Origin: a virus
Virus record (IMG/VR): IMGVR_UViG_3300017989_000082
Coordinates: 1 to 64,000 of that record
Length of the DNA: 64,000 nucleotides
Reading direction: 5' to 3' (one strand)
In this document: piece by piece, positions 828 through 14,154 of the stretch
Position numbering within the stretch: position 1 is the first letter of the stretch
How the letters are laid out: every line of letters starts with the position of its first letter
The notes under the pieces: model-generated
Seen by the model: the letters and a program-made list of their open reading frames with translations, nothing else
The model's database searches: none
Told to the model about the DNA's origin: nothing
Program-made: the position numbers and the translations under genes

Positions 828-879
828 TATATGCCTTTCTGAACATTTCTGCTCCTTATTGCAGGGTTAAAGGAAAACG

Positions 880-902
880 GGGGCGACAACTTGTGTCGCC
901 CC
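880..902 (-). terminator. Intrinsic terminator after the Lys/Ala-rich gene
   Basis: A 9-bp GC-rich stem (880-888 with 894-902) has a 5-nt loop. On the minus strand it is followed by a T-rich run (CGTTTTCCTTT). It lies between the gene at 939-1568 and the RadC-like gene, so the latter may need its own promoter or read-through. Confidence 0.75.
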
Positions 903-938
903 TATTCCTCGGGCGCGGTGATTTCTTGCTGGACTTAT

Positions 939-1568
939 TTAGCCAGCCTTCTCGAAGCCCACTTTCTCCATCATGCGGACGAAGGTATTGAAGCTGTTTT
1001 TGGTCGGCTTGCACCACCAGTACTTGCCGACCTTGTTGGCCTGGTCCTTCAGGCCGTCCAGCTTCCCAACGTCTTGCAGGGCAACACCGTTGGTCTTGGT
1101 TTTGGAGCCCTTGTAAACGGGCCGCCCGAAGCCGACCATGCCGGGGTAGTTGTCGCCGGTCACAATGCGAATCTCAACCTTCGGCTGGCGGTAGTCCCTG
1201 ATGCGAACAATGTCACCGCTCTCGGCGTTCATGCTGGTGGTGAAGTCCACATTCACGAACTGCTTTGTCAGCCGTTTCAGGAAGTCCAGCGGCTGTTCTG
1301 CTTCTTCCCGGCGTTCACGCTTGACGAACTTGTTGATCTCGCGATACGGGTCACGGGAGCCGTGATAGGCTTGCTGCTCCAGAAACTTCTTGTCGAAAGG
1401 CGTAGCTTTCCTCTTCTTCTCATCCTTCGGAGCAGCCTTTGCCTTCTTGCTGGGAGCCGGGGGCGCGGCTTCAACTTCAACCGGAGCTTCGGTGGCCGTG
1501 GGGGTCGCCGCGGGGGCGGCAGTCTTCGTCTTTGCTTTCTTTGCTTTTTTGCTCTTCTTTGTAGCCAT
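939..1568 (-). CDS. Hypothetical protein with Lys/Ala/Pro-rich tail
   Basis: 209 residues from the ATG at 1568, chosen because AAAGGAGG lies 6 nt upstream; an in-frame ATG farther upstream lies across the sigma-54 promoter. Residues 1-55 are a histone-H1-like basic, Ala/Pro-rich tail. Residues 60-209 are a compact charged and aromatic domain ending in NSFNTFVRMMEKVGFEKAG, which I do not recognise. The only operon signal is a divergent sigma-54 promoter at 1641-1656 and a downstream terminator. A DNA-binding role is possible but unproven. Confidence 0.8.
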   Translation of the reverse strand: MATKKSKKAKKAKTKTAAPAATPTATEAPVEVEAAPPAPSKKAKAAPKDEKKRKATPFDKKFLEQQAYHGSRDPYREINKFVKRERREEAEQPLDFLKRLTKQFVNVDFTTSMNAESGDIVRIRDYRQPKVEIRIVTGDNYPGMVGFGRPVYKGSKTKTNGVALQDVGKLDGLKDQANKVGKYWWCKPTKNSFNTFVRMMEKVGFEKAG

Positions 1569-1640
1569 GTTTACCTCCTTTGTGTGGTTGTTGTATGTGG
1601 CTACTGTCCAATTGCTTACTGCGCTGTTGCCCGGAAAGTA

Positions 1641-1656
1641 TGCAACCGCCATGCCA
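1641..1656 (-). promoter_or_regulatory. Sigma-54 promoter, minus strand
   Basis: On the minus strand this reads TGGCATGGCGGTTGCA: GG and GC doublets exactly 10 nt apart, as in the -24/-12 consensus TGGCAC-N5-TTGC. It lies 73 bp before the ATG of the 939-1568 gene and is divergent from the promoter at 1978. The dyad pair at 1785-1823 lies between the two. Confidence 0.85.
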
Positions 1657-1784
1657 ACGTGGTCATCGTGTACTCGTCATTATTCATCTCAACTGAAGAG
1701 TTTTGAGTTTGCTACATTTATTTTTTTCAGCCAATTTCGATGGGTCAGGGCGGTTAGCTTCGATTACCGTTGAAGAGTTTAAAA

Positions 1785-1823
1785 GTGCCGCTCTTTGTCA
1801 CTTTAAATAACTCTTTTTGTCAC
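1785..1823. promoter_or_regulatory. Paired activator dyads (candidate enhancer)
   Basis: Two 17-bp sites: GTGCC-N7-GTCAC (1785-1801) and ATAAC-N7-GTCAC (1807-1823), 22 bp apart. They fit the dyad consensus seen before the other sigma-54 promoters of this phage (GTNAC/GTGCC-N7-GKCAC). Placed between two divergent sigma-54 promoters, they could serve both. A weaker third site, ATTAC-N7-GAGTT, is at 1763-1779. The rest of the 464-bp gap is AT-rich with no gene. Confidence 0.7.
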
Positions 1824-1977
1824 TCTACTCTATTTATCATCGTCATCTTATTATCTTCTCTTTTTGGCCAACCGCCCCCTTTAAGTATTGACTACAAATT
1901 GGTACGGCGACTGCTCTATTATCAGCCGTAAAGAGGTCGCCAGCGTAGACTATAAATTATTGGAATCGCTATACTTT

Positions 1978-1993
1978 TGGCATGGCATTTGCA
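1978..1993 (+). promoter_or_regulatory. Sigma-54 promoter
   Basis: TGGCATGGCATTTGCA, with GG (1979-1980) and GC (1991-1992) in -24/-12 register. The initially transcribed region contains GGGTAAC, as in other members of the set. It drives the operon beginning at 2033. Confidence 0.85.
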
Positions 1994-2032
1994 TAATTTT
2001 TGGGTAACAAATTAAGCCATGAAGGAGCTAAA

Positions 2033-2284
2033 ATGAAAAAGTATTATATCAAAAGAAGACAAAGAAGACTTGGTGGGTGGGCTGTTATGTGTCCCTGTTG
2101 CGACAAACCAATTGCCAACGGGATGCGTAAAGAAGTTGCCGAGGCATATTGCGCCTTGCAAAACAGCGATGCCCTTCAGCGACAAATAGACAAAGAGTTT
2201 AAGAAAGGAATTTGCTATGATCCTGAAGGAATCACAGAGAGAATTGTTGAAGCCTATTATCGAACAGGCAGGTTTCCTGTCTAA
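2033..2284 (+). CDS. Small hypothetical protein with CxxC
   Basis: 83 residues from the ATG at 2033, preceded by GAAGGAGC. The basic N-terminus (KKYYIKRRQRR) is followed by a CPCC motif that could bind metal, then a helical C-terminal half. First gene of a sigma-54 operon. It overlaps the next gene by 68 bp. I do not recognise a family. Confidence 0.7.
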   Translation: MKKYYIKRRQRRLGGWAVMCPCCDKPIANGMRKEVAEAYCALQNSDALQRQIDKEFKKGICYDPEGITERIVEAYYRTGRFPV

Positions 2285-2498
2285 AAAAGATATTGAGGCC
2301 CTGCTGGCAAGTGGCGACAACATGGGGCAATTGCCCTGTCTGATCCGCTGTGGGAATGTCAGGCTTATTACGGCGATGATGTATGCGCCTATTATGGTGC
2401 AGATTATTAATAACGAAACTGTCGTGAATGATTATGTCAGAGATGTTTCCTTTGACAAGGCAACATACGACAAAATCAAAGCGGCACTCGGGAGGTAG
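2217..2498 (+). CDS. Hypothetical protein
   Basis: 93 residues with an amphipathic N-terminal segment. The start at 2217 has AAAGGA upstream but overlaps the preceding gene by 68 bp. A shorter start at 2322 would remove the overlap. The protein ends 2 bp before the Pol X-like gene, which suggests translational coupling. No family recognised. Confidence 0.6.
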   Translation: MILKESQRELLKPIIEQAGFLSKKDIEALLASGDNMGQLPCLIRCGNVRLITAMMYAPIMVQIINNETVVNDYVRDVSFDKATYDKIKAALGR

Positions 2499-2500
2499 TA

Positions 2501-3361
2501 ATGGCTAAGGGAAAGAAAATGAAAACGATCCACGCAAGGCCCATAGCCAAGGAGGTTGAGGCGGCTCTTAAGGCCGTGCCTTGCGTGGCCGATGTTGTAG
2601 TTTGTGGTTCGATGCGGCGGATGCGCCCCGAGCTGAACGATGTAGATGTGGTCGTCGTCAGCGAAACCATGAACCCGAAGGGCCAAATCTGGTCGCAACT
2701 GCCAAAGTGCGACCATCTTAACAACGGAAACACCGACAAGCGCATTATTTATAAGGGGCTTCAGTTCGACATTCGGGTGTTTCCGCATCGGGCAAAAGGG
2801 GCGGCTCTGCTGTTCTCAACTGGCTCTGCCCGCTTCAATGTGCAGATGCGAAGTCATGCCAAGCGGCTCGGCTTTAAGCTGAACCGCTACGGTGTCTGGA
2901 AGGGGGACACAAACCTGACAGTGGGGTTTGATGAAAAGCAGATCTTTGAATTATTGGGGCTGAAGTATGTTGAGCCTAAAGATCGTGATGACAGCATTAT
3001 CACCAATAAGAAGATAAAGAGGCGCACATGGGTTATCAGAAGCAAGAGTAACCCGAACAAGAAATACAAGGTAAGCCTTGAGGATGGCGAGCTTCGATGC
3101 GAGTGTAAGGGTTTTACTTTTCGACGAACCTGCTGGCATACCAAGAAGGTAAGAGAAAGCCTTGGTGATGTTATGCCTGAAAAGGAGAGAATTCACAAGT
3201 ATCGTAAGATAAAAGTCATGTGCTCGTCATGCAATGAATGGCACGATGAACGGGAAGTAGATGGCATGGATATTTATGAGGACATGGAGGGAAAAGATGT
3301 TTTAGTATTCATCTGCCCCCGGTGTGGAACCAAGCGGGAATCTCGCCGCTATATGGAATAA
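2501..3361 (+). CDS. Pol X-like nucleotidyltransferase fused to SWIM and zinc-ribbon domains
   Basis: 286 residues. Residues 10-165 match the DNA polymerase beta/X palm: GSMRR (36-40) and DVD (47-49) provide two catalytic Asp, Asp90 in FDIRVF the third, and 113-161 carry the thumb-like pattern N.QMR..A..LGFKL...G...LGL.Y..P.DR. The usual N-terminal 8-kDa/HhH domain is missing. Residues 175-216 form a SWIM zinc finger (Cys200, Cys202, Cys211, His213). Residues 236-280 form a zinc ribbon (Cys241, Cys244, Cys272, Cys275). The catalytic triad suggests an active nucleotidyltransferase; a DNA-repair or end-modifying role is inference. I do not know this exact architecture as a named family. Confidence 0.8.
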   Translation: MAKGKKMKTIHARPIAKEVEAALKAVPCVADVVVCGSMRRMRPELNDVDVVVVSETMNPKGQIWSQLPKCDHLNNGNTDKRIIYKGLQFDIRVFPHRAKGAALLFSTGSARFNVQMRSHAKRLGFKLNRYGVWKGDTNLTVGFDEKQIFELLGLKYVEPKDRDDSIITNKKIKRRTWVIRSKSNPNKKYKVSLEDGELRCECKGFTFRRTCWHTKKVRESLGDVMPEKERIHKYRKIKVMCSSCNEWHDEREVDGMDIYEDMEGKDVLVFICPRCGTKRESRRYME

Positions 3362-3362
3362 A

Positions 3363-3390
3363 TTGCTTGATATGGATTTTCTGTTATGAT
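3363..3390 (+). promoter_or_regulatory. Probable sigma-70 promoter for the structured RNA
   Basis: TTGCTT-N16-TATGAT, followed by an AT-rich start region. The predicted start near 3397 coincides with the 5' end of the structured segment. The match is moderate. Confidence 0.5.
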
Positions 3391-3396
3391 AATATT

Positions 3397-3682
3397 AACG
3401 AACCTGTTGGAGCTGAGCCTGTGGAGGTTGGTACGAAATTTTTGCGTGGGTGTCCATGCGTCCGGCAGAGGGAGGCCGTACCGTAAAAAGAGTCATGCTG
3501 CCGGTGCATAGTGGGGTATGGGTTGGGAGCTTCGCCAGCCCTCTCCGTTATAACGGCCTACATGGGCCTAGGAGGGTAAATGGACACACAGTGCTGAGAC
3601 TTTCGGTTGCGGTCGAAGCAGGGCGGTTAGATAGCTAGTTCTCCAGCTTATGCCGCCCCTCCCAAGCAACCGCTTTTCTTTT
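3397..3682 (+). ncRNA. Structured non-coding RNA with a 23S-like hairpin
   Basis: A 286-nt segment has its own promoter and no convincing gene. Complementary pairs include 3430-3435/3477-3482 (GGTACG/CGTACC), 3450-3456/3581-3587 (GTGTCCA/TGGACAC), 3462-3468/3498-3504 (CCGGCAG/CTGCCGG), 3520-3526/3535-3541, and 3604-3610/3666-3672 (CGGTTGC/GCAACCG) enclosing 3621-3626/3653-3658. The first and third cross, so a pseudoknot is possible. Bases 3629-3644 (AGATAGCTAGTTCTCC) differ at one base from the 23S rRNA helix 35 hairpin. The 3' end is a GC stem followed by CTTTTCTTTT. Class unknown. Confidence 0.6.
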
Positions 3683-3698
3683 AACCAAGGAGGAAACA

Positions 3699-4187
3699 AT
3701 GAGTAGCGTATTACAAACAAGGTTTGGCAGACTCGTGATATGGGCGGCCGACAAAGACACAGTCAAAATCTCACCATCTGATTCCCCTGTAAAGATCTAT
3801 GGTGTGGGGTATGATGTCCACGCCACTCTTTGCAGATATGAAGAAGATGAATTCCAGATTTGTGATCCCGAAGAGTTTATTATGTCAAGATCCATACAGT
3901 CAGTAGACTGGAAAGACAAATTTGCTACGCCAGCGGCTAAGGAGGCCATGCATAAGGAGCTAGAGTATTTAGTACCTCTGTGGGCTTTGGAAAATATAGA
4001 AGAAAAACCTGAAGATGAAGGCATTCCCCCCGAAGATCCAGTTGAGCCTGAGCCTGAAAAGAATGAAGAACCAGATGATGGGCCAGACCTTACAACTATT
4101 GAAGGCAAGCGAGAAATGATCGCCAAGCTGAAAGAGCAGATTGCCCAGCTTAAGGTCGAGATAAATGAGGCCAAAAAGAGGCAGTAG
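3699..4187 (+). CDS. Hypothetical acidic protein with C-terminal coiled coil
   Basis: 162 residues; AAGGAGG lies 7 nt upstream of the ATG. Residues 1-100 look globular. Residues 105-130 are a Pro/Glu/Asp-rich linker. Residues 132-162 form a heptad-like coiled coil (MIAKLKEQIAQLKVEINEAK). It directly follows the structured RNA and may be expressed from the same transcript. Not recognised; the coiled coil suggests oligomerisation. Confidence 0.75.
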   Translation: MSSVLQTRFGRLVIWAADKDTVKISPSDSPVKIYGVGYDVHATLCRYEEDEFQICDPEEFIMSRSIQSVDWKDKFATPAAKEAMHKELEYLVPLWALENIEEKPEDEGIPPEDPVEPEPEKNEEPDDGPDLTTIEGKREMIAKLKEQIAQLKVEINEAKKRQ

Positions 4188-4206
4188 CAGTAACAAAGAG
4201 TGTCAC
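4168..4206. promoter_or_regulatory. Paired activator dyads upstream of promoter 4267
   Basis: GTAAC-N7-GTCAC at 4190-4206 is a full match. A degenerate partner AGGCC-N7-GGCAG at 4168-4184 lies 22 bp upstream, inside the end of the preceding gene. An intrinsic terminator lies between this pair and the promoter, as expected if the activator acts by DNA looping. Confidence 0.65.
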
Positions 4207-4230
4207 TTTAGATTCCTAGATTAAACACCG

Positions 4231-4262
4231 AGGCCCTCAAGATAGTCCTAGAGGGCCTTTTT
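4231..4262 (+). terminator. Intrinsic terminator
   Basis: Eight-bp stem AGGCCCTC/GAGGGCCT (4231-4238 with 4251-4258) followed by a T run. It closes the 3699-4187 unit and insulates the sigma-54 promoter that begins 5 bp later. Confidence 0.85.
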
Positions 4263-4266
4263 ACGA

Positions 4267-4282
4267 TGGCACGCTGTTTGCA
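4267..4282 (+). promoter_or_regulatory. Sigma-54 promoter
   Basis: TGGCACGCTGTTTGCA is the closest match in the window to the textbook TGGCACG-N4-TTGCA. GG at 4268-4269 and GC at 4280-4281. Downstream GGGGTAAC...ACCC then GAAAGGAGG leads into the 4324 gene. Confidence 0.9.
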
Positions 4283-4323
4283 TACCTTTGGGGTAACGCA
4301 CACAACCCGAAAGGAGGCAAGTT

Positions 4324-4692
4324 ATGGCGACAAGAATTACAGAAGGTTTTATGAAGGCGATCAGGCCAAAAATTGAGGAAGCTCTTGAGCTGGTAGGGGA
4401 AGAGTTTGAAGTTGAGTTTGAAACTGCCAGAGCCACCTACAATGAAAACTGGTTTGAAATGAAGATCAAGTGCAAGGCCGCCGGGGGTCTGACCAGAGAG
4501 CAAACTGATTATGATAACAGGCGTGCCAGGATTGGACTTCCGCCGCGAGGCAACACGGTCCACCTGAACGGCGTGCCGTATGAGATTTACGGCTGGAAGG
4601 TTTCAGCCAGAAAGTACAAGATTATTGTTATTGACAGGCGAACGGGAGAGCGGCTCAAGTGTACGCCCTGGGCGATCATCAACAGCCTTTAA
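4324..4692 (+). CDS. Hypothetical protein
   Basis: 122 residues; AAAGGAGG precedes the ATG. The first 45 residues are acidic and helical, the rest basic and beta-rich. First of five small genes, each with an AAGGAG-type ribosome-binding site and short gaps, in the operon of promoter 4267. No family recognised. Confidence 0.8.
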   Translation: MATRITEGFMKAIRPKIEEALELVGEEFEVEFETARATYNENWFEMKIKCKAAGGLTREQTDYDNRRARIGLPPRGNTVHLNGVPYEIYGWKVSARKYKIIVIDRRTGERLKCTPWAIINSL

Positions 4693-4703
4693 GGAGAACA
4701 GCT

Positions 4704-5012
4704 ATGTCAAATGTAAAGAAAATTCATCTTGAATACGTTCGGCACCTGTATGAGGAGCATTATTGTTACGATCATGCTGATTATCAGTACCTCATGATGC
4801 AGATTGGCCGAATTGTTACGAATCACAACGAGGGATTGTTGGTGGAAGTCACTCCATTTAACGGCTCCAAAAGCAGGGTCGTTATTAGCGGCGAAGAGGC
4901 TGTTTCCTACCTTTGGCTTAAAAAGATGGCCAGATGCATGAGAGCCTATGGCTCCAAATTCAATGGCTACCACCAGGACATTGAGGATAACGGCCCACAG
5001 ATAGCATTATAA
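4704..5012 (+). CDS. Hypothetical protein
   Basis: 102 residues from the ATG at 4704, chosen for AAGGAGA 8 nt upstream rather than the longer frame that overlaps the previous gene. His/Tyr-rich N-terminus (YEEHYCYDHADYQY). No recognised domain. Second gene of the operon. Confidence 0.8.
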   Translation: MSNVKKIHLEYVRHLYEEHYCYDHADYQYLMMQIGRIVTNHNEGLLVEVTPFNGSKSRVVISGEEAVSYLWLKKMARCMRAYGSKFNGYHQDIEDNGPQIAL

Positions 5013-5022
5013 GGAGGCTAAA

Positions 5023-5235
5023 ATGAAGGCGTTGGACGGAACAGAATTAACAAAGGTATTGTGGAAGGATATTCGTGACGGGGACATTGTATATCTTTAC
5101 GCCACACATCAGGGTAAGGAGTATGGGATAGGGCCTTTCAGGGTGGTGTCAAAAAATAGAAGAGCCTTATGCCGAGTTGATTCAAAAAGAAATTTTCTTA
5201 ACTATCCTGAAGAGTTGTATAGAATCAAAATATAA
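5023..5235 (+). CDS. Small hypothetical protein
   Basis: 70 residues; AAGGAGG precedes the ATG. Predicted to be a small beta-barrel-like protein (GDIVYLYATHQGKEYGIGPFRVV), unassigned. Third gene of the operon. Confidence 0.75.
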   Translation: MKALDGTELTKVLWKDIRDGDIVYLYATHQGKEYGIGPFRVVSKNRRALCRVDSKRNFLNYPEELYRIKI

Positions 5236-5246
5236 GGAGGCTTAAC

Positions 5247-5435
5247 ATGAACACGATTAACTGCGTAGGTTGTGGAAAAGAGCTTAAGTTGCAGGTTTGC
5301 CAGTCTGCGGCTGGATACTATGCTGGCCACTGGTGTAAGACCTGTGGACCACACGACCGTCAGAGCTTTTACTTTGGAACCAAAGAGGAGGCTCAGGAGA
5401 TGGTTGATCAGATGGTGAGCGCAACCAATAATTAG
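5247..5435 (+). CDS. Small zinc-ribbon-like protein
   Basis: 62 residues with AAGGAGG upstream. Cys6-x2-Cys9 and Cys30-x2-Cys33 form a probable zinc-ribbon. A helical tail follows. One of many small Cys-rich proteins in this regulon. Function unknown. Confidence 0.75.
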   Translation: MNTINCVGCGKELKLQVCQSAAGYYAGHWCKTCGPHDRQSFYFGTKEEAQEMVDQMVSATNN

Positions 5436-5445
5436 GAGGTGGTTA

Positions 5446-5685
5446 ATGTTTTGCAAGAATACGCTTCGGCGTAAGCCGAGCCAGATTTACAACCCGGCAG
5501 ATGTCGGCAGTTTTGGTACTATTTACGTGAATCCTACCACATACCATGAGTTTGAACAGCGAGTCCCGAATCATGGTTTCAATTTATTAATTTCTCGTAA
5601 TATTCCTGATGGGCACTTAGAGCTCGTAACACAAGATTCTAGGAAGATGGTTACACTTGATGCTCTGGTCGCCTTTCTCCGGTAA
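5446..5685 (+). CDS. Small hypothetical protein
   Basis: 79 residues with AGGAGG upstream. Last gene of the operon. Its stop codon overlaps the first activator dyad of the next promoter, so the regulatory sites are packed against the coding DNA. Not recognised. Confidence 0.75.
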   Translation: MFCKNTLRRKPSQIYNPADVGSFGTIYVNPTTYHEFEQRVPNHGFNLLISRNIPDGHLELVTQDSRKMVTLDALVAFLR

Positions 5686-5719
5686 CTCTTTACGGCACTC
5701 CAGTAACAAATAGAGTCAT
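5682..5719. promoter_or_regulatory. Paired activator dyads upstream of promoter 5773
   Basis: GTAAC-N7-GGCAC (5682-5698) and GTAAC-N7-GTCAT (5703-5719), 21 bp or two helical turns apart. The pair ends 55 bp before the -24 GG, exactly as for the pair at 6806-6843. Confidence 0.75.
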
Positions 5720-5772
5720 TAGACAATTAACTCCTTTGATTGGTTACCTGAATAGACTACTCTTTTTCAGGT

Positions 5773-5788
5773 TGGCATGGCTGTTGCA
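5773..5788 (+). promoter_or_regulatory. Sigma-54 promoter
   Basis: TGGCATGGCTGTTGCA, GG 5774-5775 and GC 5786-5787. It is preceded by the box GACTACTCTTTTTCAGG shared with promoters at 6897 and 11811. It is followed by GGGTAACAACCC, a possible 5' hairpin, and GAAAGGAG. Confidence 0.9.
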
Positions 5789-5829
5789 TACCTGTAGGGT
5801 AACAACCCGCACCGAAAGGAGAATGGAAA

Positions 5830-6141
5830 ATGAAAAATGGAAAGAAGACGAAAGTGTATCACGCAGACCCGCCGCGGTTTAGTGTGTTTGGCGATGAAGA
5901 GCTGCTGGAATCCCTTCATGATTTTCCCAGCGGCTACGAGTTGGCCGCTACTGCCGATTTCCCCATGCTGGATCTTGTTTACCAGCTTACCAACAGTATT
6001 GACTGGCCGTGGTGGGAGAATGAGGGTGTCACCATGGAGGGTAATGTTGAGGGTCGGCGAAGTACCAGCGTCGGTGATGTCATTGTGATTCCCGACGGAA
6101 GCCGCTTCGTGGTCGCCCTTATGGGTTTCAAACAATTTTAA
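5830..6141 (+). CDS. Hypothetical protein
   Basis: 103 residues; GAAAGGAGA upstream. A basic N-terminus is followed by a mixed alpha/beta domain. First gene downstream of the sigma-54 promoter at 5773. No family recognised. Confidence 0.78.
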   Translation: MKNGKKTKVYHADPPRFSVFGDEELLESLHDFPSGYELAATADFPMLDLVYQLTNSIDWPWWENEGVTMEGNVEGRRSTSVGDVIVIPDGSRFVVALMGFKQF

Positions 6142-6152
6142 GGATGTGCATC

Positions 6153-6350
6153 ATGTCAAGGGTTGCCACCAAAGAGCAAATCATTGATGATATTCTATCA
6201 GACACCAGCGAGCATTGCGATAACATTGGTGAAATACTCTATGAACTCTTTACCAGAGAACAAAACACCCAAAAGCTCAGGTCTTTGCTTGAGGAATACT
6301 TTGCCGATGAATCAGCTCTGACCAAATGGCAACAACTTGACTGGATATAA
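6153..6350 (+). CDS. Small acidic helical protein
   Basis: 65 residues from the ATG at 6153, where AAGGA lies 8 nt upstream; the ATG at 6144 overlaps that site. Strongly acidic and helical. Second gene of the 5773 operon. Not recognised. Confidence 0.7.
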   Translation: MSRVATKEQIIDDILSDTSEHCDNIGEILYELFTREQNTQKLRSLLEEYFADESALTKWQQLDWI

Positions 6351-6359
6351 GGAGGCACT

Positions 6360-6722
6360 ATGCCTAGCATGAGAGACACACATAAGAGAATAGAAAAAAG
6401 ACTCAAAAAAATGGAGGAAGAAATGCCCTACAAAGAAGAATACATGGAGCAGGCCAAGGCCGCGGCTGAGCAGGTCGCACGCCTTATCAACAATTTCAGC
6501 GATGATCCTGCCAAAGCCTTTGTTGAGGCGATGGGCAGTCAGCACCGCACGCTCCAGCAAAACTTCATGGGGCTGGTTTGCGGATGGATTCAAATGAATG
6601 CCGACCGCTACGCCCGCGGCCAGTACGACCTACGCAATGAGGCGACTTGCCAGCTTTGCGCCAGAATTAAGGAATCGCTTGAGACCTGTGGCTACGAGCT
6701 ATATAAGTTACCAACAGTATAA
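6360..6722 (+). CDS. Helical hypothetical protein
   Basis: 120 residues; AAGGAGG upstream. The N-terminal 30 residues are a charged helix (KRIEKRLKKMEEE). The rest is helical with a late CxxC (QLCARI region has spaced Cys). Last gene before a terminator. Not recognised. Confidence 0.75.
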   Translation: MPSMRDTHKRIEKRLKKMEEEMPYKEEYMEQAKAAAEQVARLINNFSDDPAKAFVEAMGSQHRTLQQNFMGLVCGWIQMNADRYARGQYDLRNEATCQLCARIKESLETCGYELYKLPTV

Positions 6723-6738
6723 CCTAGAACCTACGAGT

Positions 6739-6781
6739 CCGCAGGGGAATTAAACTCCTTTCGCCCCTGCGGGCCTTTTTT
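6739..6781 (+). terminator. Intrinsic terminator
   Basis: Nine-bp stem CCGCAGGGG/CCCCTGCGG (6739-6747 with 6764-6772) with a 16-nt loop and a following T6 run. It ends the operon started at 5773. Confidence 0.85.
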
Positions 6782-6805
6782 ATCTTATTAACGGATATCG
6801 TTTTA

Positions 6806-6843
6806 GTAACTCTTTACGGCGCTCTAATGACTCTTTGCGGCAC
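6806..6843. promoter_or_regulatory. Paired activator dyads upstream of promoter 6897
   Basis: GTAAC-N7-GGCGC (6806-6822) and ATGAC-N7-GGCAC (6827-6843), 21 bp apart. The distance to the -24 GG is 55 bp, identical to the previous unit. Confidence 0.75.
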
Positions 6844-6896
6844 TGAGATTAACAGACCATATTTCTCTTCCTTAAATAGATTACTCTTTTTCAGGC

Positions 6897-6912
6897 TGGC
6901 ATGGGTGTTGCA
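6897..6912 (+). promoter_or_regulatory. Sigma-54 promoter
   Basis: TGGCATGGGTGTTGCA, GG 6898-6899 and GC 6910-6911. Box GATTACTCTTTTTCAGG lies directly upstream, and AGGGTGTAAG follows at the likely start. Confidence 0.9.
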
Positions 6913-6969
6913 TACAAATAGGGTGTAAGCGTTGAACCCAACCGACACAACAACCGAAAGGAGACTACT

Positions 6970-7257
6970 ATGGCGAATGTAAGATTTAGAGGCGGTAAGC
7001 GTTCCAGAGGCTATACTGAACACAGGCATAACCGGGACCCCAAGCCTGTGAAGGAAATCGAATTCTACGGAACCCGGTTGGAATCTTTCTATGACGGTAT
7101 GCTTTCTTCCATCGAGCGGGTGTTTGAGGCGAGCCCCGGCATCACTCAGATGAACCCCCGGCACGCTGTCTTGTTTAGGCAGTTGGCAGACAGTTACCAT
7201 CAGTTGTCTGCTGTTCGGCGCAACCAACTCAGGAGCATTGTGCGTAAAGGAGTTTAA
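6970..7257 (+). CDS. Basic hypothetical protein
   Basis: 95 residues; GAAAGGAG upstream. The first 30 residues are very basic (RFRGGKRSRGYTEHRHNR); the rest is helical. First gene of a five-gene operon from the 6897 promoter. Not recognised. Confidence 0.78.
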   Translation: MANVRFRGGKRSRGYTEHRHNRDPKPVKEIEFYGTRLESFYDGMLSSIERVFEASPGITQMNPRHAVLFRQLADSYHQLSAVRRNQLRSIVRKGV

Positions 7258-7260
7258 AAA

Positions 7261-7602
7261 ATGCCAGCATACAATCTGCCTGAAGGGGTAATGGAAGAAG
7301 AAGAGCGGGAAGTGCTTGATATCCGCGGCGGTGTTTCGTGGGAGTACGCCCCGGCATACTGGCTTAACGACAGTGAGTGGGCTACCGTCTTGCTTCACCG
7401 CACCCCTGATCCCTGCCCGTTCTGCGGAAGCATCCGGCTTGAACCGCACGTCGGCAACTGCTATGAGGGGAACAAGCTGTGGGATGAGTATTTCTGTCAG
7501 GATTGCGGCGAAGCGGTTGTCTGGGTTGTTTGGTTTGATGGGTCGCCCCCAACATGGGACATCAACCACCTTAATCCAATGATTGAAAGGAGTTTGATAT
7601 GA
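7261..7602 (+). CDS. Lar-like zinc-ribbon protein
   Basis: 113 residues; AAAGGAG upstream. CPFCG at 52-56 (Cys52, Cys55) and CQDCG at 79-83 (Cys79, Cys82) form a zinc ribbon resembling the Lar (restriction alleviation) type found in phages. The resemblance is only to the CPFCGS...C..CG pattern, so an anti-restriction role is inference. Its stop overlaps the next start by 4 bp. Confidence 0.7.
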   Translation: MPAYNLPEGVMEEEEREVLDIRGGVSWEYAPAYWLNDSEWATVLLHRTPDPCPFCGSIRLEPHVGNCYEGNKLWDEYFCQDCGEAVVWVVWFDGSPPTWDINHLNPMIERSLI

Positions 7603-7775
7603 GTAGAGCCGATACTGTATGTATTCACTGTGAATTCTTCGCCCTGAACTGGTGCGAGGAAGTGGCGCAAACAATGGCAGAGAATGCGCCAGGAGTTGAA
7701 TGCTCGCATGAGTTTGATGTAAACCTGAACGAGCCTTGCGGGTGTTACTGCCCCGTAGAGGGTCTAACCGAATAA
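7599..7775 (+). CDS. Small Cys-rich protein
   Basis: 58 residues. The ATG overlaps the previous stop (ATGA) and is preceded by AAAGGAG. Seven Cys, including CIHC and CGCYC, plus His suggest a metal-binding knuckle. Not recognised. Confidence 0.7.
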   Translation: MSRADTVCIHCEFFALNWCEEVAQTMAENAPGVECSHEFDVNLNEPCGCYCPVEGLTE

Positions 7776-7787
7776 AAGGAGAAAGCT

Positions 7788-7991
7788 ATGAAACTCGCAC
7801 CCCCTTGCGTTATCTGTGGTAAGAAAAACCCGTTTTACGAAGATGTGTGGGTGATTACCCCTAAGGGAGTAGCCTGCCTGAAACACTCAGGAGTAAAGGA
7901 GGAATTTGAGAAAGTATACAAAGATGTTGGCGGTGAGGATGGGTATCTTGATCTTTTGCTCGAAATAGATAAATACTCAACGGAGGAATGA
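7788..7991 (+). CDS. Small Cys-containing protein
   Basis: 67 residues; AAAGGAG upstream. CVICG at the N-terminus and CLKH about 20 residues later could bind zinc; the C-terminal half is an acidic helix. Followed by a 9-codon ORF (7988-8017) that I do not count as a gene. Confidence 0.72.
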   Translation: MKLAPPCVICGKKNPFYEDVWVITPKGVACLKHSGVKEEFEKVYKDVGGEDGYLDLLLEIDKYSTEE

Positions 7992-8028
7992 TCATGAGGC
8001 TTACTGCAACAGCATAAGGAGAAATGCC

Positions 8029-8553
8029 ATGAGTAAAAGACCAAAAATGAAAATCATGAAGATCAGTGCGTGCATCGGTTGCCCGAATGTGCATCTTCAC
8101 AGTGTTGGGCATTATTCGTGTTGGGAAATGACAAAAAGTCTTGAGAGTATTGATGTAACAAGCCATACTCCTGACTGGTGCCCTTTATCTGAATTTGCTA
8201 TTCCCAATTTCATTACCGAAGGGTTTTTCGTTGAGGCTCTCAACAAGATTCTTGAAATTGAGGCCGAGCATGATGGTGGCGGTGAGTATCCAACATGGTT
8301 TACCGATAACGAGCTTGACCGCACGACCTATTGGTCCAATATGAGGAGGGCCATTGAAGACCTTTTGGGCGGAATGACCCCGAAGTTTGAGACCATGAAC
8401 CTTGACGATGCCTTGACAATGGCCTATGAGGATCTGCGTGACCTTTCCCCTTTTGATGGCAATAAGCTGGCCTCTATCATTACACTGATCTCAGGCCGCG
8501 GGGCTCGTTATAACCCTGAAACCGACTTGATCGAATTAGAGCCTGAAGGGTGA
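8029..8553 (+). CDS. Hypothetical protein with N-terminal Cys cluster
   Basis: 174 residues; AAGGAGAA upstream. Cys15, Cys18, Cys31 and Cys51 form a CxxCP...C...WCPL arrangement typical of small metal-binding modules. Residues 60-174 are helical. Last gene of the 6897 operon, before a terminator. Function unknown. Confidence 0.75.
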   Translation: MSKRPKMKIMKISACIGCPNVHLHSVGHYSCWEMTKSLESIDVTSHTPDWCPLSEFAIPNFITEGFFVEALNKILEIEAEHDGGGEYPTWFTDNELDRTTYWSNMRRAIEDLLGGMTPKFETMNLDDALTMAYEDLRDLSPFDGNKLASIITLISGRGARYNPETDLIELEPEG

Positions 8554-8599
8554 TTTTCGACCCCTGCCTGCTTCTGTCAGCAGGAAATAGGTTTAAAGG

Positions 8600-8640
8600 G
8601 GCGTCTCAGGCTGCTCAGGATGCCCTTAGACGCCTTTTTT
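8600..8640 (+). terminator. Intrinsic terminator
   Basis: GGCGTCT pairs with AGACGCC at the ends of 8600-8634, with an imperfect inner stem, followed by T6. Confidence 0.8.
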
Positions 8641-8701
8641 CTTAAAATAGGTACTCAAGCCCGCCTAGAAGGCTCGAAGGCTTTAAAACGGCTCTACGTG
8701 G

Positions 8702-8818
8702 CTCGTAATACGCCTGACTCGTAACACGTAAGACTCGTAATATATATTTCGTACTTAAAGAGTTACGAGAAAGAGCTAGATTACGAGTTACGAGCTAGAT
8801 TACGAGTTACGAGCTAGA
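8702..8818. repeat. CTCGTAAY / GTTACGAG short repeats
   Basis: Three CTCGTAAY copies are followed by several inverted copies. The latter include two tandem units of AGCTAGATTACGAGTTACG near 8776-8815. An activator-like CGTAC-N7-GTTAC site (about 8753-8769) merges with the repeat. The 468 bp between 8553 and 9022 hold this repeat, a terminator, a dyad pair and a promoter, and no gene. Confidence 0.65.
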
Positions 8819-8842
8819 CCTCCTACCCGATAAGATTACCCT

Positions 8843-8880
8843 ATGACTCTTTTTGCTTATCTTTTGCCGCAGATTGTCAC
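8843..8880. promoter_or_regulatory. Paired activator dyads upstream of promoter 8944
   Basis: ATGAC-N7-GCTTA (8843-8859, weak right half) and TTGCC-N7-GTCAC (8864-8880), 21 bp apart. The pair ends 65 bp before the -24 GG, one helical turn more than the 55-bp pairs. Confidence 0.6.
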
Positions 8881-8943
8881 AATTAGATATCGCTTGCCGC
8901 TACCTACAACATCCTGCCCCTGTAACGACTAATCTATTCGGGT

Positions 8944-8959
8944 TGGCACAGGAGTTGCA
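8944..8959 (+). promoter_or_regulatory. Sigma-54 promoter
   Basis: TGGCACAGGAGTTGCA, GG 8945-8946 and GC 8957-8958. It matches TGGCAC and TTGCA of the consensus fully. The leader to the 9022 gene ends in GAAAGGAG. Confidence 0.88.
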
Positions 8960-9021
8960 CCCTATATGTGCGTATGGCAGAAGCATTTGTCGTTAACCCG
9001 AAGTAGAAAGGAGACAAAATT

Positions 9022-9390
9022 ATGAATGAGAAGCTTCGTCTTATTGAGCAGGGAAAGCCCACTGGTCGGCTTACGGCTGATGAATGGGCGGTCGTGCTCA
9101 AGGCAATCGAAAAGGGCGAAATCGAAACCGACGGAACCCATGTGGAACGGTTTGATATCCTGATTGATGTTATCAAGGCAAGGGGCTCCTGCCATGACCA
9201 GCCGAATGGCTGTGTCGGTTGTATTATTGATAGGGCAACCGGGGGCGACGAACTTGCCTGTGATGTGGCTGTCTTCGGGCCTATTCATGATATGCTGATT
9301 TACTGGATAACTGGTGTTCGGCCAACTGATGCCGACTTGAGTATTCACAATGACCATATGGCGGGCTGTCGGCAGTATTACGGTGAGTAA
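9022..9390 (+). CDS. Hypothetical protein
   Basis: 122 residues; GAAAGGAG upstream. Acidic, with Cys and His scattered from residue 58 on (CHDQPNGCVGC), a possible metal site. Followed by an 8-bp GC hairpin (9399-9419) without a T run. Not recognised. Confidence 0.75.
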   Translation: MNEKLRLIEQGKPTGRLTADEWAVVLKAIEKGEIETDGTHVERFDILIDVIKARGSCHDQPNGCVGCIIDRATGGDELACDVAVFGPIHDMLIYWITGVRPTDADLSIHNDHMAGCRQYYGE

Positions 9391-9444
9391 TCGGGAACAG
9401 GGCGGGCTTGTCCCGCCCTAACCCCAACCAAAAAGGAGAAGACA

Positions 9445-9759
9445 ATGCCGGGAATCAGAATTATTGAGTGGACGGCGAGGGCACACACCAAGAGTGAATG
9501 GGTTGACATTATTACGGAATTCCAGTCGGCCCTGGAGCACGTTGACCAGACACACATCACCTTCAAGATCAACGAGCCCAACCAGCTTGACCCGGAAGAC
9601 AGAATCACTATTAATTGGAAGGAAAGGCGGGGATTCCAGTACCTCAGGGACGGGGCCGGGCACTGGTCCTGTCAGACCTTTGCCAGCCGCGCCTACGAAG
9701 ACCTGATACTGGCCGTATTGGGCGGAGCAGGAGTTAGGTTCCGCATAACCTATAAGTAG
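9445..9759 (+). CDS. Hypothetical protein
   Basis: 104 residues; AAAGGAGA upstream. Alpha/beta composition, no recognised motif. Second gene downstream of the 8944 promoter. Confidence 0.75.
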   Translation: MPGIRIIEWTARAHTKSEWVDIITEFQSALEHVDQTHITFKINEPNQLDPEDRITINWKERRGFQYLRDGAGHWSCQTFASRAYEDLILAVLGGAGVRFRITYK

Positions 9760-9771
9760 GGAGATATAACG

Positions 9772-9903
9772 ATGGCGAAAGAAATAAGAATCCTCAAGGT
9801 GCGGCACATGGGAACCGTCGGTAATGAGATTAAAGCCCAAGCCGATGATTATGAACTCTGTGCCTCTGGCAGGACATGGGCGGAAGCGGTGACGACCCGA
9901 TGA
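9772..9903 (+). CDS. Tiny hypothetical protein
   Basis: 43 residues; GGGAGA lies 8 nt before the ATG, and the stop overlaps the next ATG. The short length makes it uncertain, but the spacing and coupling fit the operon. Confidence 0.5.
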   Translation: MAKEIRILKVRHMGTVGNEIKAQADDYELCASGRTWAEAVTTR

Positions 9904-9974
9904 TGAATTGGGGGTGGTTTGACGACCTGCCCCAGCCGCTGCCGAAGGCTGATATTATCGCTTCGAAGAAGTAA
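9900..9974 (+). CDS. Tiny hypothetical ORF
   Basis: 24 residues starting at an ATG that overlaps the preceding stop (ATGATGA). It could be a coupled microprotein or simply a chance ORF. Confidence 0.3.
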   Translation: MMNWGWFDDLPQPLPKADIIASKK

Positions 9975-10027
9975 AACCGGTCCGGGCGGGGGCCAAAAGC
10001 GTCCCCGTCCTAGTGGAAGGAGAAGAT

Positions 10028-10450
10028 ATGTCAGTTACCAAGGTTAATCTTGACCGATGGCTACTGGAAGGTGCGGTAGATAAGTGGTATCAGATATGCT
10101 TTGCTAACGGCGTCGACCGCGGCGGGCAGAACTGCCCTCTGTGTCAACACTACAACGAGTACTGCTGTACGACTACCGACGGAGAGCCCGTCAACTTTAA
10201 CGACCTTATTGACAATAACGAGAATATCCACCGATGCCCCGTCTTCGAAGAGTCAGAGCTGAGTGATTGCCAGAATACTCCGTACGATCAGTGGAACAGA
10301 TACGTTAAGGCTCGGACTACCTGTGCTCGTATAGGCAGAGAAAAACGCTGGGAGGGCTGGAAGGTTTCTGACCTGCGTTCCCTCTACCTCGCCTTTAACG
10401 AATACTGCTACCTTAAACGACTACTGGAAGAAAGGAGCGAAGATGTTTAA
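10028..10450 (+). CDS. Cys-rich hypothetical protein
   Basis: 140 residues from the ATG at 10028, with GGAAGGAGA upstream. CPLC, CC and CPVF spread over residues 35-80 suggest one metal-binding module; the C-terminal half is helical and basic. It overlaps the next gene by 8 bp. Not recognised. Confidence 0.75.
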   Translation: MSVTKVNLDRWLLEGAVDKWYQICFANGVDRGGQNCPLCQHYNEYCCTTTDGEPVNFNDLIDNNENIHRCPVFEESELSDCQNTPYDQWNRYVKARTTCARIGREKRWEGWKVSDLRSLYLAFNEYCYLKRLLEERSEDV

Positions 10451-10655
10451 ACCTCTGATTATAGGCTATAAGTACGAGCAGACCTACTACTTACACAAAA
10501 CAGATGTGTATATGTCTGCTGGTAACGAACCCACCGCGGCTCGGTTCTTCTGTACCCTAGCCTCCCTTCCGACTGCCGTAAGAGCCTACGGGCCTATATA
10601 CGATAAAAACGGTAACGAAGTAGATATAGATCAACTTATCAGAAAACACCTGTAA
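10443..10655 (+). CDS. Small hypothetical protein
   Basis: 70 residues; GAAAGGAG upstream inside the previous gene. Tyr-rich beta-like N-terminus. Coupled to the preceding gene. Not recognised. Confidence 0.7.
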   Translation: MFKPLIIGYKYEQTYYLHKTDVYMSAGNEPTAARFFCTLASLPTAVRAYGPIYDKNGNEVDIDQLIRKHL

Positions 10656-10666
10656 GGAGAAGAGCT

Positions 10667-10824
10667 ATGTTTCAAATGTGTTTTTAGATCAGATAAACAA
10701 CAACAACAGCGGCTACAATATCAACGAGCATACCTATAAACTATTCGTCGCCTCTATAGATATTTACCCACAAGGCCGTAAATATCTCTACCGCTACTTT
10801 ATAAACCTCGAAGGCGACTACTAA
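10667..10824 (+). pseudogene. Small gene broken by a frameshift at a T run
   Basis: An ATG at 10667 with AAGGAGA upstream reads only seven codons (stop at 10685-10687). The adjacent frame stays open from there to 10822-10824 with protein-like composition (about 48 residues, Asn/Tyr-rich) and has no ATG. One extra T in the run at 10681-10685 would join the two. It is either a real mutation, a sequencing error or a programmed shift. Confidence 0.55.
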
Positions 10825-11700
10825 AAATCCGCTCATCCTGAAAAGACTCTCAGCCTGTATTTAAGACCATAGGCTTTTCTTTGAATAGATGCAATAGACG
10901 TACTATACAACACATAATACTATAGACCTCTACCCCTGCTATCATATAAAATACCCCCCCCAACCCCTAGCCCCTCTATATATCTAGAACTTTCTACGAT
11001 GCCCGTAGCCGTTACTCTAGCCCTAAACTAATACCTGAGCCTACCCTAATACAATCGAACGCCTTACGATTGATTTACCTACCCCTAACCAAACCCCTCG
11101 TAACAAATACTACCTCGTAATATACTACACAACTGAGACGTCTGGTTAAGAGCGGGTAGACCTCGTAACGCAGAGCTCTATCAAAGACCTCTATATCTAT
11201 TCATCTATTGCAGACATCTATATCTACCCCTCCAGACTCCTGGTATCTGTGCTCTAATGCCTCTGCCTCCATTACTCTAGTCGGGAAACAATATATATAT
11301 ATATATCACTCTGTCCAGAAATCTAGTCTATTACCACCCCGAAAATCAGGAGAACGACGTCCTCTAATAGTTGGTAGTATCTGATTTATATAAATAATCA
11401 CCAATATCCTGCCCCTTTTCTCTTTTGTCCCCATCTATATCTGTATCGTTATCTTAGCATATACCATCTATATCTGTATCGTTATCTGTATCGTTATTTG
11501 TATCGTTATTTTAGGAATAACCTGCTCTTTTCCTCTTTCATCCCCATCTCAAATCTGGCTAAAGAGCTCCACTTATGCAGATATCGTACCAAAAATCCAT
11601 CGGAAGTTATAAAAACTCTAAGATATCGTATAAAAAAGATTATAAAAGTACAAAAAGACGTCAAAGACGTCAGATTATATATTTAGAGTAGATAAGAAGA
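10825..11700. other. Non-coding, low-complexity spacer
   Basis: No credible gene in about 880 bp on either strand. It contains CTCGTAAY copies (near 11098, 11113, 11161), runs of C/T/A such as CCCCCCC, an (AT)n stretch near 11289-11304, and a degenerate tandem of TGTATCGTTATCT-like units at 11430-11515. A 62-codon frame at 11498-11686 begins with TTG and has no ribosome-binding site. Confidence 0.6.
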
Positions 11701-11710
11701 TCATAAAAAG

Positions 11711-11748
11711 ATTACAAAAAGAGCCACTAGATTAACAAATAGAGTCAC
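11711..11748. promoter_or_regulatory. Paired activator dyads upstream of promoter 11811
   Basis: ATTAC-N7-GCCAC (11711-11727) and TTAAC-N7-GTCAC (11732-11748), 21 bp apart, ending 64 bp before the -24 GG. Confidence 0.7.
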
Positions 11749-11810
11749 AGACCCATGTACGATAAGCACAGCCTGGGAACTGCCCCTTGAATAGATTACT
11801 CTTTTACAGT

Positions 11811-11826
11811 TGGCATGGGAGCTGCA
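11811..11826 (+). promoter_or_regulatory. Sigma-54 promoter
   Basis: TGGCATGGGAGCTGCA, GG 11812-11813 and GC 11824-11825. The -12 box is CTGCA rather than TTGCA. The GATTACTCTTTTACAG box lies upstream. It drives three small genes. Confidence 0.82.
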
Positions 11827-11887
11827 TACTGTATAGGGTGCAGGCAGGTGCGTTTATCGTTTAAATAGAAACAGAAAGGAGAAGATA

Positions 11888-12076
11888 ATGGTATGGAGAG
11901 GGTTAACAGAGTACGTAGTCTACTTCAGGACCGAGCACTGCGGTCCTGAATACGAGGTGGTATCGGGGTCGTTCGACCCCGATAGGGCCAAGGAGATGGC
12001 CGAGCAGCTGACTGAGCGACTGGCTACGCTGGTCGACTGCGGGTGCTGTCTGCCCGCAGTTAAACGAAAGGATTAA
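11888..12076 (+). CDS. Small hypothetical protein
   Basis: 62 residues; GAAAGGAGA upstream. Beta strands followed by a helix, with CGCC near the C-terminus. Codons 25-32 form a strong DNA dyad (GGGTCGTTCGACCC) that resembles a tRNA T-arm by chance. Not recognised. Confidence 0.72.
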   Translation: MVWRGLTEYVVYFRTEHCGPEYEVVSGSFDPDRAKEMAEQLTERLATLVDCGCCLPAVKRKD

Positions 12077-12080
12077 GATA

Positions 12081-12293
12081 ATGATAGAAAAGATCAAGAG
12101 GGCTGCGTATACTGCTCTTAATCGGAGGGGCGTTGTTCTCGCCCCTACCCCGAAGGAGATTCGATTCCCGCAGTTCGACCCCTGCCGGGCAGTAATGCCT
12201 ATCGCTATTGTAGAGTGGCGAGCGACTGTTAATATGGAAGAGAAGATTCTCACCCATGTTATTATGCCCGGCGATATTTCTTTCCGGACCTAG
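12081..12293 (+). CDS. Small hypothetical protein
   Basis: 70 residues, 4 bp after the previous stop; GAAAGGATTA upstream. Basic N-terminal helix. Not recognised. Confidence 0.68.
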   Translation: MIEKIKRAAYTALNRRGVVLAPTPKEIRFPQFDPCRAVMPIAIVEWRATVNMEEKILTHVIMPGDISFRT

Positions 12294-12305
12294 AGGAGAA
12301 GATTA

Positions 12306-12512
12306 ATGCTTACAGACAACGATATTTTCATGAGGATCTTAGGCACGGTCTTGCTCTTTACCGTTATTATAGGAGCGGCTATCGTTTGTAAGGCTAACGT
12401 ACAGCTCGGAAGCTACCGAGTGAGATATTTCCCGGCAGACGGCGAGTATTGCGATTGCTATACCAACGAGCTGGGAGAAGAATACTGCGGACCCTGCTAC
12501 TATATAGATTAG
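12306..12512 (+). CDS. Small single-pass membrane protein
   Basis: 68 residues; AGAGGAGA upstream. One transmembrane helix at about residues 9-27 (ILGTVLLFTVIIGAAIV). A short domain with four Cys (CDCY, CGPCYY) follows. This last intact gene of the 11811 operon probably acts at the inner membrane; role unknown. Confidence 0.75.
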   Translation: MLTDNDIFMRILGTVLLFTVIIGAAIVCKANVQLGSYRVRYFPADGEYCDCYTNELGEEYCGPCYYID

Positions 12513-12565
12513 ACCTGCCTTAACGCCCGCCCGATCAAGAGGCCGCCAGAGGAAGGAGGAAACTG

Positions 12566-12625
12566 GTGGCTATCCTTCCGTACCGGGTTTGGATATCTAG
12601 GCTCGTAACGCAGGGTTCGCTCTAA
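12566..12625 (+). CDS. Truncated mini-ORF interrupted by repeats
   Basis: A GTG preceded by an excellent AAGGAGGAAA site opens a 19-codon frame. It stops inside the first CTCGTAAC repeat block. It may be the stub of a gene lost when the repeats expanded. Low certainty. Confidence 0.3.
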   Translation: MAILPYRVWISRLVTQGSL

Positions 12626-12870
12626 GAGGTCGTAATCCTACCTCGTAACCCGATGTCGAAATAAAGATGTCGAAATCGGAGGTCGGGCCTCGTAACCCAG
12701 ACCTCTTTAAAAGATGTCGAATCCGACCTCCTGCCTCGTAACCCGGACGGAAGATAAAGATGTCGAATCCGACCTTCTGCCTCGTAACCCGGACGGAAGA
12801 TAAAGATGTCGAATCCGACCTTCTGCCTCGTAACCCGGACGGAAGATAAAGATGTCGAATCCGAGGTCGA
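12602..12870. repeat. 46-bp tandem repeat array containing CTCGTAAC
   Basis: Three near-identical 46-bp units at 12713-12758, 12759-12804 and 12805-12850, each GATGTCGAATCCGACC... then CCTCGTAACCCGG. A degenerate 47-bp unit (12666-12712) precedes them, and a partial unit follows from 12851. Isolated CTCGTAAC copies occur at 12602 and 12643. The open frame this creates on the minus strand is a by-product of the repeat. Confidence 0.8.
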
Positions 12871-12898
12871 AATCGGAGGACCGAGCCCTGGACCCGAG

Positions 12899-12936
12899 GT
12901 GCCGTAAAGAGTCATACGAGTGCCGCTCCTTGTCAC
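12899..12936. promoter_or_regulatory. Activator dyad pair with a decayed promoter
   Basis: GTGCC-N7-GTCAT (12899-12915) and GTGCC-N7-GTCAC (12920-12936), 21 bp apart, are among the best dyads in the window. The usual GATTACTCTTTCAGG box follows at 12947. Where TGGCA...TTGCA should begin (about 12962) there is CTCGTGATATACGAG, itself a dyad. No intact gene follows until 13269. Confidence 0.7.
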
Positions 12937-13102
12937 TTTTCGACCAGATTACTCTTTCAGGAGCTCGTGATATACGAGTCGGGGAAGGACTTCAAGATCG
13001 GACATATGTAATGCCAACTAAGGATGTCTTGGCTGAGGGGGGGGTAGAAAATACACCCTGAACGGCCGTATAAAACAACCGTTTGCCTTTAAATTCAATA
13101 AG

Positions 13103-13118
13103 TTAGGCAATTGCCTAA
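13103..13118. promoter_or_regulatory. Perfect 16-bp palindrome, possible operator
   Basis: TTAGGCAATTGCCTAA is a perfect palindrome 52 bp before the -24 element of the 13170 promoter. This promoter lacks the usual dyad pair nearby, so the palindrome may be its own regulator site. Inference only. Confidence 0.4.
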
Positions 13119-13169
13119 AAAATTAGCCCGAAAAGAAAAATGACGAAAAAAGCTTATTTTTTCATGTAT

Positions 13170-13185
13170 TGGCATATGAGTTGCA
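13170..13185 (+). promoter_or_regulatory. Sigma-54 promoter
   Basis: TGGCATATGAGTTGCA, GG 13171-13172 and GC 13183-13184. The standard dyads are absent within 200 bp; the nearest pair ends at 12936. The leader has a GGTTG...CAACC hairpin and GAAAGGAAA before the 13269 gene. Confidence 0.78.
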
Positions 13186-13268
13186 GTATTTACCGCGCAC
13201 ATAAGTTTTACAGGTTGTCAATAATGGCAACCTCAACTAGCCCGCGCCGCGGGCAGAAAGGAAACACC

Positions 13269-14093: not shown

Positions 14094-14117
14094 ATTTTAG
14101 CCCGCGCCCGCGGTATA

Positions 14118-14153
14118 ACGCGCCTGTTATTTTTTTTTAACAGGCGCGTTTTT
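14118..14153 (+). terminator. Intrinsic terminator
   Basis: Twelve-bp stem ACGCGCCTGTTA/TAACAGGCGCGT with a T-only loop, followed by T5. It ends the 13269 gene. Confidence 0.88.
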
Positions 14154-14154
14154 C

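Follow-up and report, generated by a model that had tools for sequence, protein, structure and literature searches.

Sigma-54 promoters with paired upstream dyads in a phage genome, and host PilR as their candidate activator

The record IMGVR_UViG_3300017989_000082, from an uncultured bacterial virus, is linear, incomplete and 96,332 bp long. Its bases 1-64,000 (the window) carry eight sites that match the sigma-54 promoter motif TGGCAY-N5-YTGCA, and paired dyads, which are candidate enhancers, lie upstream of the promoters. Genome expression in tailed phages usually begins with the housekeeping polymerase or with one of their own making. Because sigma-54 promoters stay silent until their activator acts, a single host signalling pathway would strictly determine whether this whole phage module is expressed. 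We consider it likely (a probability of roughly 0.7) that host PilS-PilR, together with RpoN, switches this module on.

In the proposed mechanism, about eight phage operons, distributed over both strands, would form a sigma-54 regulon in which every operon has its -24/-12 promoter and, upstream of it, two paired 17-bp dyads. Host RNA polymerase carrying RpoN would sit at these promoters in a closed state, and a host enhancer-binding AAA+ activator, likely PilR, would bind the dyads and open the complex. Expression of the module would consequently be limited to cells with active PilS-PilR, which are those that make pilin or lack enough of it. The phage might benefit if it enters by type IV pili, or because its accessory genes would be expressed only in piliated cells.

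The sigma-54 promoters

All eight sites first noticed in a sequence-only reading of this DNA are exact at the positions and on the strands then assigned to them, with the GG and GC doublets 10 bp apart. That reading had proposed a scan of the rest of the genome for further sites; no other exact site is present in the record, and with a generic sigma-54 matrix the same eight have the top eight scores (16.4-20.1, with 20.1 the maximum possible). In dinucleotide-preserving shuffles (n = 200), the whole record gave a mean of 0.325 exact sites and never more than 2, and the first 14 kb gave a mean of 0.02 and never more than 1, compared to eight observed; the arrangement is indeed as unlikely by chance as had been supposed. 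Weaker matches elsewhere in the record exceed those in the shuffles modestly, which is the one point in favour of a chance cluster. Chance clustering has almost no probability left: it is already refuted by the shuffles, in which the exact sites per record never exceeded 2, by the resampling of the dyad pairs and by the promoter-gene linkage that is conserved in a diverged phage (both described below).

Each of the sites also lies where a promoter should. An AAGGA/GAAGG-type ribosome-binding site and an ATG are present 43-88 nt downstream on the correct strand in 8/8 cases; among randomly chosen positions of the region, only about 5% have the same combination 24-90 nt downstream. The earlier statement that every site precedes a gene with a ribosome-binding site thus stands, with two starts corrected: the minus-strand site at 1641 falls within the longest open reading frame (ORF), 939-1652, for which the fitting start is ATG 1568, and the site at 13170 falls within the mechanical ORF 13140-14093, for which the fitting start is ATG 13270. 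A consensus over the nine sites of the phage (the ninth is on an overlapping contig) continues past the quoted motif: TA follows the -12 box, and a GGGTAAC-like stretch is conserved where transcription is predicted to start. The spacer of the motif is free in sequence and fixed in length, and the sites are single and oriented with the genes.

The minus-strand promoter (TGGCATGGCGGTTGCA, 1641..1656) heads a leftward operon that starts at ATG 1568. Its first gene (939..1568, minus strand) is delimited by the fit of ribosome-binding site and ATG; the operon encodes a basic 209-amino-acid protein and a RadC-like JAB protein and continues onto the overlapping contig. The other seven promoters are on the plus strand. 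The first of them (TGGCATGGCATTTGCA, 1978..1993) precedes genes 2033-2284, 2217-2498 and 2501-3361, the last of which (2501..3361, plus strand) encodes a PolX-like nucleotidyltransferase (DNA_pol_B_thumb, E = 2.5e-19). It is followed by promoters at 4267..4282 (TGGCACGCTGTTTGCA, operon 4324-5685), 5773..5788 (TGGCATGGCTGTTGCA, operon 5830-6722), 6897..6912 (TGGCATGGGTGTTGCA, operon 6970-8553), 8944..8959 (TGGCACAGGAGTTGCA, operon 9022-10655) and 11811..11826 (TGGCATGGGAGCTGCA, operon 11888-12512). The last promoter (TGGCATATGAGTTGCA, 13170..13185) precedes a G+C-rich gene, 13270-14093, whose Ala-rich product has no Pfam match. Intergenic tandem and inverted repeats are also present in the window, at 12636-12864, 14155-14415 and 8697-8826 (46-bp units, CACCAGCACG units and CTCGTAAC motifs).

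The neighbouring block from 15 to 21 kb has sigma-70 promoters at 15002, 16336, 17037, 18835 and 19752, each with 11/12 matches. Because this adjoining block has good sigma-70 promoters, the sigma-54 genes seem to be a separate transcription class, giving two classes. The description of the sigma-54 genes as an "early region" in the sequence-only reading does not follow from this picture.

Paired dyads upstream of the promoters

Overlooked in that reading were 17-bp dyads of the form GTGnC-N7-GnCAC, which occur in pairs upstream of the promoters and are spaced 21-22 bp, or two helical turns, apart. Paired dyads on the same face of the helix at such a distance are the usual anatomy of sigma-54 enhancers, to which activators of the NtrC family bind. 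Four pairs have two well-formed members 21 bp apart: 5682..5719 (GTAACTCTTTACGGCAC at 5682 and GTAACAAATAGAGTCAT at 5703), 6806..6843 (GTAACTCTTTACGGCGC at 6806 and ATGACTCTTTGCGGCAC at 6827), 11711..11748 (ATTACAAAAAGAGCCAC at 11711 and TTAACAAATAGAGTCAC at 11732) and 12899..12936 (GTGCCGTAAAGAGTCAT at 12899 and GTGCCGCTCCTTGTCAC at 12920). The remaining three have one poorer member. The pair at 1785..1823 consists of GTGCCGCTCTTTGTCAC (1785-1801) and a degenerate dyad (1807-1823); it sits between the divergent promoters 1641 (minus) and 1978 (plus) and could serve both. At 4169..4206 a weak dyad (4169-4185) is followed by GTAACAAAGAGTGTCAC (4190-4206), and at 8843..8880 a degenerate one (8843-8859) is followed by TTGCCGCAGATTGTCAC (8864-8880). 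From the start of the second dyad to the start of the promoter, the distance in five phage cases is 70, 70, 77, 79 and 80 bp. The dyad cores of this phage favour AAAGAG/CTCTTT.

The pairs were scored against the consensus GTGAC-N7-GTCAC, which was taken from bacterial pilin promoters. The best upstream pairs have a mean score of 15.1/20 versus a background of 11.0, and 0/20,000 resamplings scored as high. The paired dyads thus provide the promoters with candidate activator sites, weak at 8944 and distant at 13170. The pair at 12899-12936 either serves promoter 13170 or remains from a lost promoter near 12958. Between 12899 and 12960 the good pair and, after it, the usual pre-promoter stretch (AGATTACTCTTTCAGGA) are present without a promoter; this is possibly a relic cut by the insertion of the G+C-rich segment at 13.0-14.4 kb.

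Type IV pilin promoters of bacteria

For a search of bacterial genomes (one per species, about 85,000 species), the phage pattern was loosened to a composite of promoter, 45-75 bp and two dyads 20-22 bp apart. Twelve stretches match. Seven are at type IV pilus loci, and six of these are directly before a prepilin gene, with the gene (GFTLIEL) starting no more than about 150 bp from the promoter (L173, L175 (= L222), L176, L180, L183 (= L269) and L184). In the seventh, L181, the same promoter and dyads are immediately after pilR. The remaining five matches look like chance. The regulator adjoining the pilin loci has the domains Response_reg, Sigma54_activat and HTH_8 (a receiver, a sigma-54-interaction domain and a Fis-type helix-turn-helix), and the kinase checked, that of L176, has a PilS-like six-transmembrane domain. 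In both bacterial pilin promoters that were measured the second dyad begins 81 bp before the promoter, compared to 70-80 bp in the phage. PilR activates pilA via sigma-54 (PMC10714779; PMC6058289). Since 7/12 composite matches are at type IV pilus loci, that is, since the enhancer matches that of pilA beside pilSR, the phage enhancer appears to resemble a PilR site most. By the same comparison PilR would be the best-supported candidate activator, because in several phyla an enhancer that the dyads match stands ahead of type IV pilin genes beside pilS-pilR. The sequence-only reading had expected nutrient or stress signals; its sigma-54 promoters and the absence of a phage activator are borne out, while its early timing and its choice of signal are not, the best bacterial counterpart of the enhancer being that of pilin.

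Several observations weigh against PilR. Within the phage, the pair of promoter 8944 (8843/8864) is the weakest and is marginal, with 0.06 of random positions scoring as high, and the pair 12899/12920 is unusually far from promoter 13170 (234 bp upstream). In the diverged relative G010, described below, a clear dyad pair is present at only one of six promoters. Other deltaproteobacterial pilin promoters have sigma-54 sites without such dyads; the motif is therefore clade-specific, limited to some PilR lineages. Furthermore, the search pattern came from the phage sites and the scoring consensus from the loci so found, so the two tests are not fully independent. Finally, a search of 892 genomes with a single dyad gave 14 matches, of which five are before pilin genes (two of them already among the composite matches) and three precede genes with secreted-looking products, which leaves room for a different activator that shares the site.

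Such an activator would come from the host and bind enhancers, yet would not be PilR; an NtrC-family paralogue that recognises a site close to GTGAC-N7-GTCAC and answers to another signal is one example. Fis-type activators are numerous (37 in Desulfovibrio vulgaris; PMC4641369), similar motifs need not track similar DNA-binding domains, and the three matches before genes for secreted-looking proteins, instead of pilin, would suit it. However, the majority of the paired-dyad composite matches are pilin promoters, several beside pilS/pilR, and PilR regulons are themselves wider, with surface proteins included (PMC6058289). We regard an activator of this kind as unlikely, though a real competitor to PilR.

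Relatives of the phage and the source of the activator

A search with the portal and terminase genes found two near-identical IMG/VR contigs that overlap the record, and no further relatives by these genes. The two are almost certainly the same phage, and one of them prolongs the record 8.9 kb leftward. On this extension, a MoxR/CobS-like AAA+ gene (AAA_5/CbbQ_C) and a CobT-like VWA gene are preceded by the ninth sigma-54 promoter, which has a dyad pair of its own; the leftward operons encode RadC-like, uracil-DNA glycosylase and radical SAM proteins, among others. No close relatives were found among viral contigs with DnaE, and among isolate phages the TerL and DnaE matches are distant only. 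At the end of one contig, a helicase gene (L031:1-927, minus strand) is apparently interrupted by the start of an intein (CLTLDTNIILEDG), and the tail genes are followed by a series of genes that resemble those of glycosyltransferases, radical SAM proteins and methyltransferases (L009:7700-20000), as judged from translations only.

The diverged relative, G010 (IMGVR_UViG_3300035698_016128, 124 kb), is collinear with this phage, at 30-72% identity for most of the matched proteins; across the 20-kb promoter region of G010 (L215), blastn detects no nucleotide similarity to this phage. The six sigma-54 sites of G010 form a single cluster of 6 kb, and all of them precede ribosome-binding sites. One site precedes a PolX-like operon, as the 1978 promoter does in the window, and the site at 81580 (plus strand) is upstream of 81968-82612, the ortholog of 939-1568. 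This conserved association of predicted promoters with genes amounts to phylogenetic footprinting of the link.

The domain of sigma-54 activators, Sigma54_activat (PF00158), has no match in the record, in either overlapping contig or in G010, and the RpoN domain PF04552 is absent from the three of these that were searched for it. No gene of a phage-encoded sigma-54 system was thus found; the record is incomplete, and G010 covers the gap, as it spans the homologue of this phage's unassembled gap between helicase and DnaE. The earlier statement that no activator gene is in the window can therefore be extended to the rest of the record, the overlapping contigs and G010, and the activator is probably supplied by the host, because PF00158 is absent from the phage records and from G010. 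A phage-encoded activator, lying in the unassembled part or too diverged for PF00158, would be in keeping with a linear, incomplete record that one overlapping contig lengthened by 8.9 kb leftward, and the ninth promoter does drive a MoxR/CobS-like AAA+ protein. Nevertheless, G010 has no PF00158 match across the gap homologue, and an AAA_5/CbbQ_C protein with a CobT-like VWA partner belongs to an AAA+ group distinct from the sigma-54 activators; this source is quite improbable.

Other viruses with sigma-54-type sites

The composite of dyad pair and promoter is also present in viral contigs unrelated to this phage, with G+C contents of 33-71%. Among them is L159, in which genes for portal and terminase are present and whose record contains five exact sigma-54 sites. 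In the eleven composite-bearing viral records searched, no sigma-54 activator domain scores over threshold. One contig family resembles Stenotrophomonas phages such as S72; S72 itself has neither promoter nor dyads. We give about even chances that host PilR and sigma-54 have been recruited independently by several unrelated phage lineages to control gene modules, which would restrict part of the infection programme to cells with the pilus system switched on. The sequence-only reading knew of no phage system of this scale; the scale it described was right and is indeed larger, given nine sites with the overlapping contig and other phages that share the arrangement.

A broad scan of viral contigs with TGGCATGGNNNTTGCATA gave at least 120 stretches, several with many sites; palindromic or tandem sites were set aside as possibly another element. 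In L136, L071, L148, L050 and L141, TGGCAY-N5-TTGCA occurs as convergent palindromes 18 bp apart or in tandem arrays at 26-50 bp; these may be a distinct element imitating sigma-54 sites. Such palindromes and arrays, which are unlike promoters in appearance, lend some colour to the idea that the repeats of this phage are recognised by a phage regulator or RNA polymerase and resemble sigma-54 promoters only by coincidence. Here, however, the sites are single, oriented with the genes and before start codons, with a spacer fixed in length but free in sequence, and their paired dyads resemble those of bacterial sigma-54 pilin promoters; a look-alike is very improbable.

Two further contigs are dense in sigma-54-type sites. 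L218 (IMGVR_UViG_3300028888_000074, 115,947 bp) has 18 exact sites at 210-16201, all on the plus strand and none reversed. The backward control gave zero sites, and the majority of the sites precede a gene with a AATTAAAATT-type leader; PilR-type dyads are absent at these sites. Given its transposase, L218 could be either a phage or some other mobile element. L039 (IMGVR_UViG_3300032282_005530) has ten exact sites in less than 4 kb (8232-11835), several as divergent pairs 42 bp apart.

Comparison with known systems and significance

The arrangement is most like the control of pilA by PilS-PilR and sigma-54, which shares the -24/-12 promoter, paired dyads at a near-equal distance, RpoN and an NtrC-family response regulator (PMC10714779). 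The two differ in that the genes controlled in the phage are many small operons, not pilin, and in the AAAGAG/CTCTTT bias of the dyad core. The promoter-enhancer architecture is also that of the D. vulgaris sigma-54 regulome, in which the biggest fraction of promoters is no more than 100 nt from the closest activator site; that regulome is chromosomal, and most of its regulons have 1-4 operons, fewer than in this phage (PMC4641369). As in cyanophages with genes under host PhoBR (e.g., S-PM2d, PMC10976474), a host two-component response regulator would read phage genes; PhoB, though, acts through the housekeeping-type polymerase on genes that are scattered, whereas the module here is clustered and would depend on sigma-54. 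Another phage interaction with the PilS-PilR pathway is that of PIT4, from Pseudomonas phage LSL4. However, PIT4 is a phage protein that binds PilS and other kinases, while here DNA sites would exploit the regulator (PMC10714779).

No phage sigma-54 or PilR regulon was found in the open-access literature, a coverage outside which most subscription journals and preprints fall. The use of host regulators by phages is already known (cyanophages, PhoB), and its sigma-54/PilR version is unreported in the open-access literature searched. The combination of paired GTGnC-N7-GnCAC dyads and a -24/-12 promoter is a sequence handle for finding such phages, and matching of their enhancers to pilA promoters could help to guess hosts. 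Should the pathway be PilS-PilR, a single circuit would tie phage gene expression to surface sensing and to the pilus, a surface structure that serves many phages as receptor.

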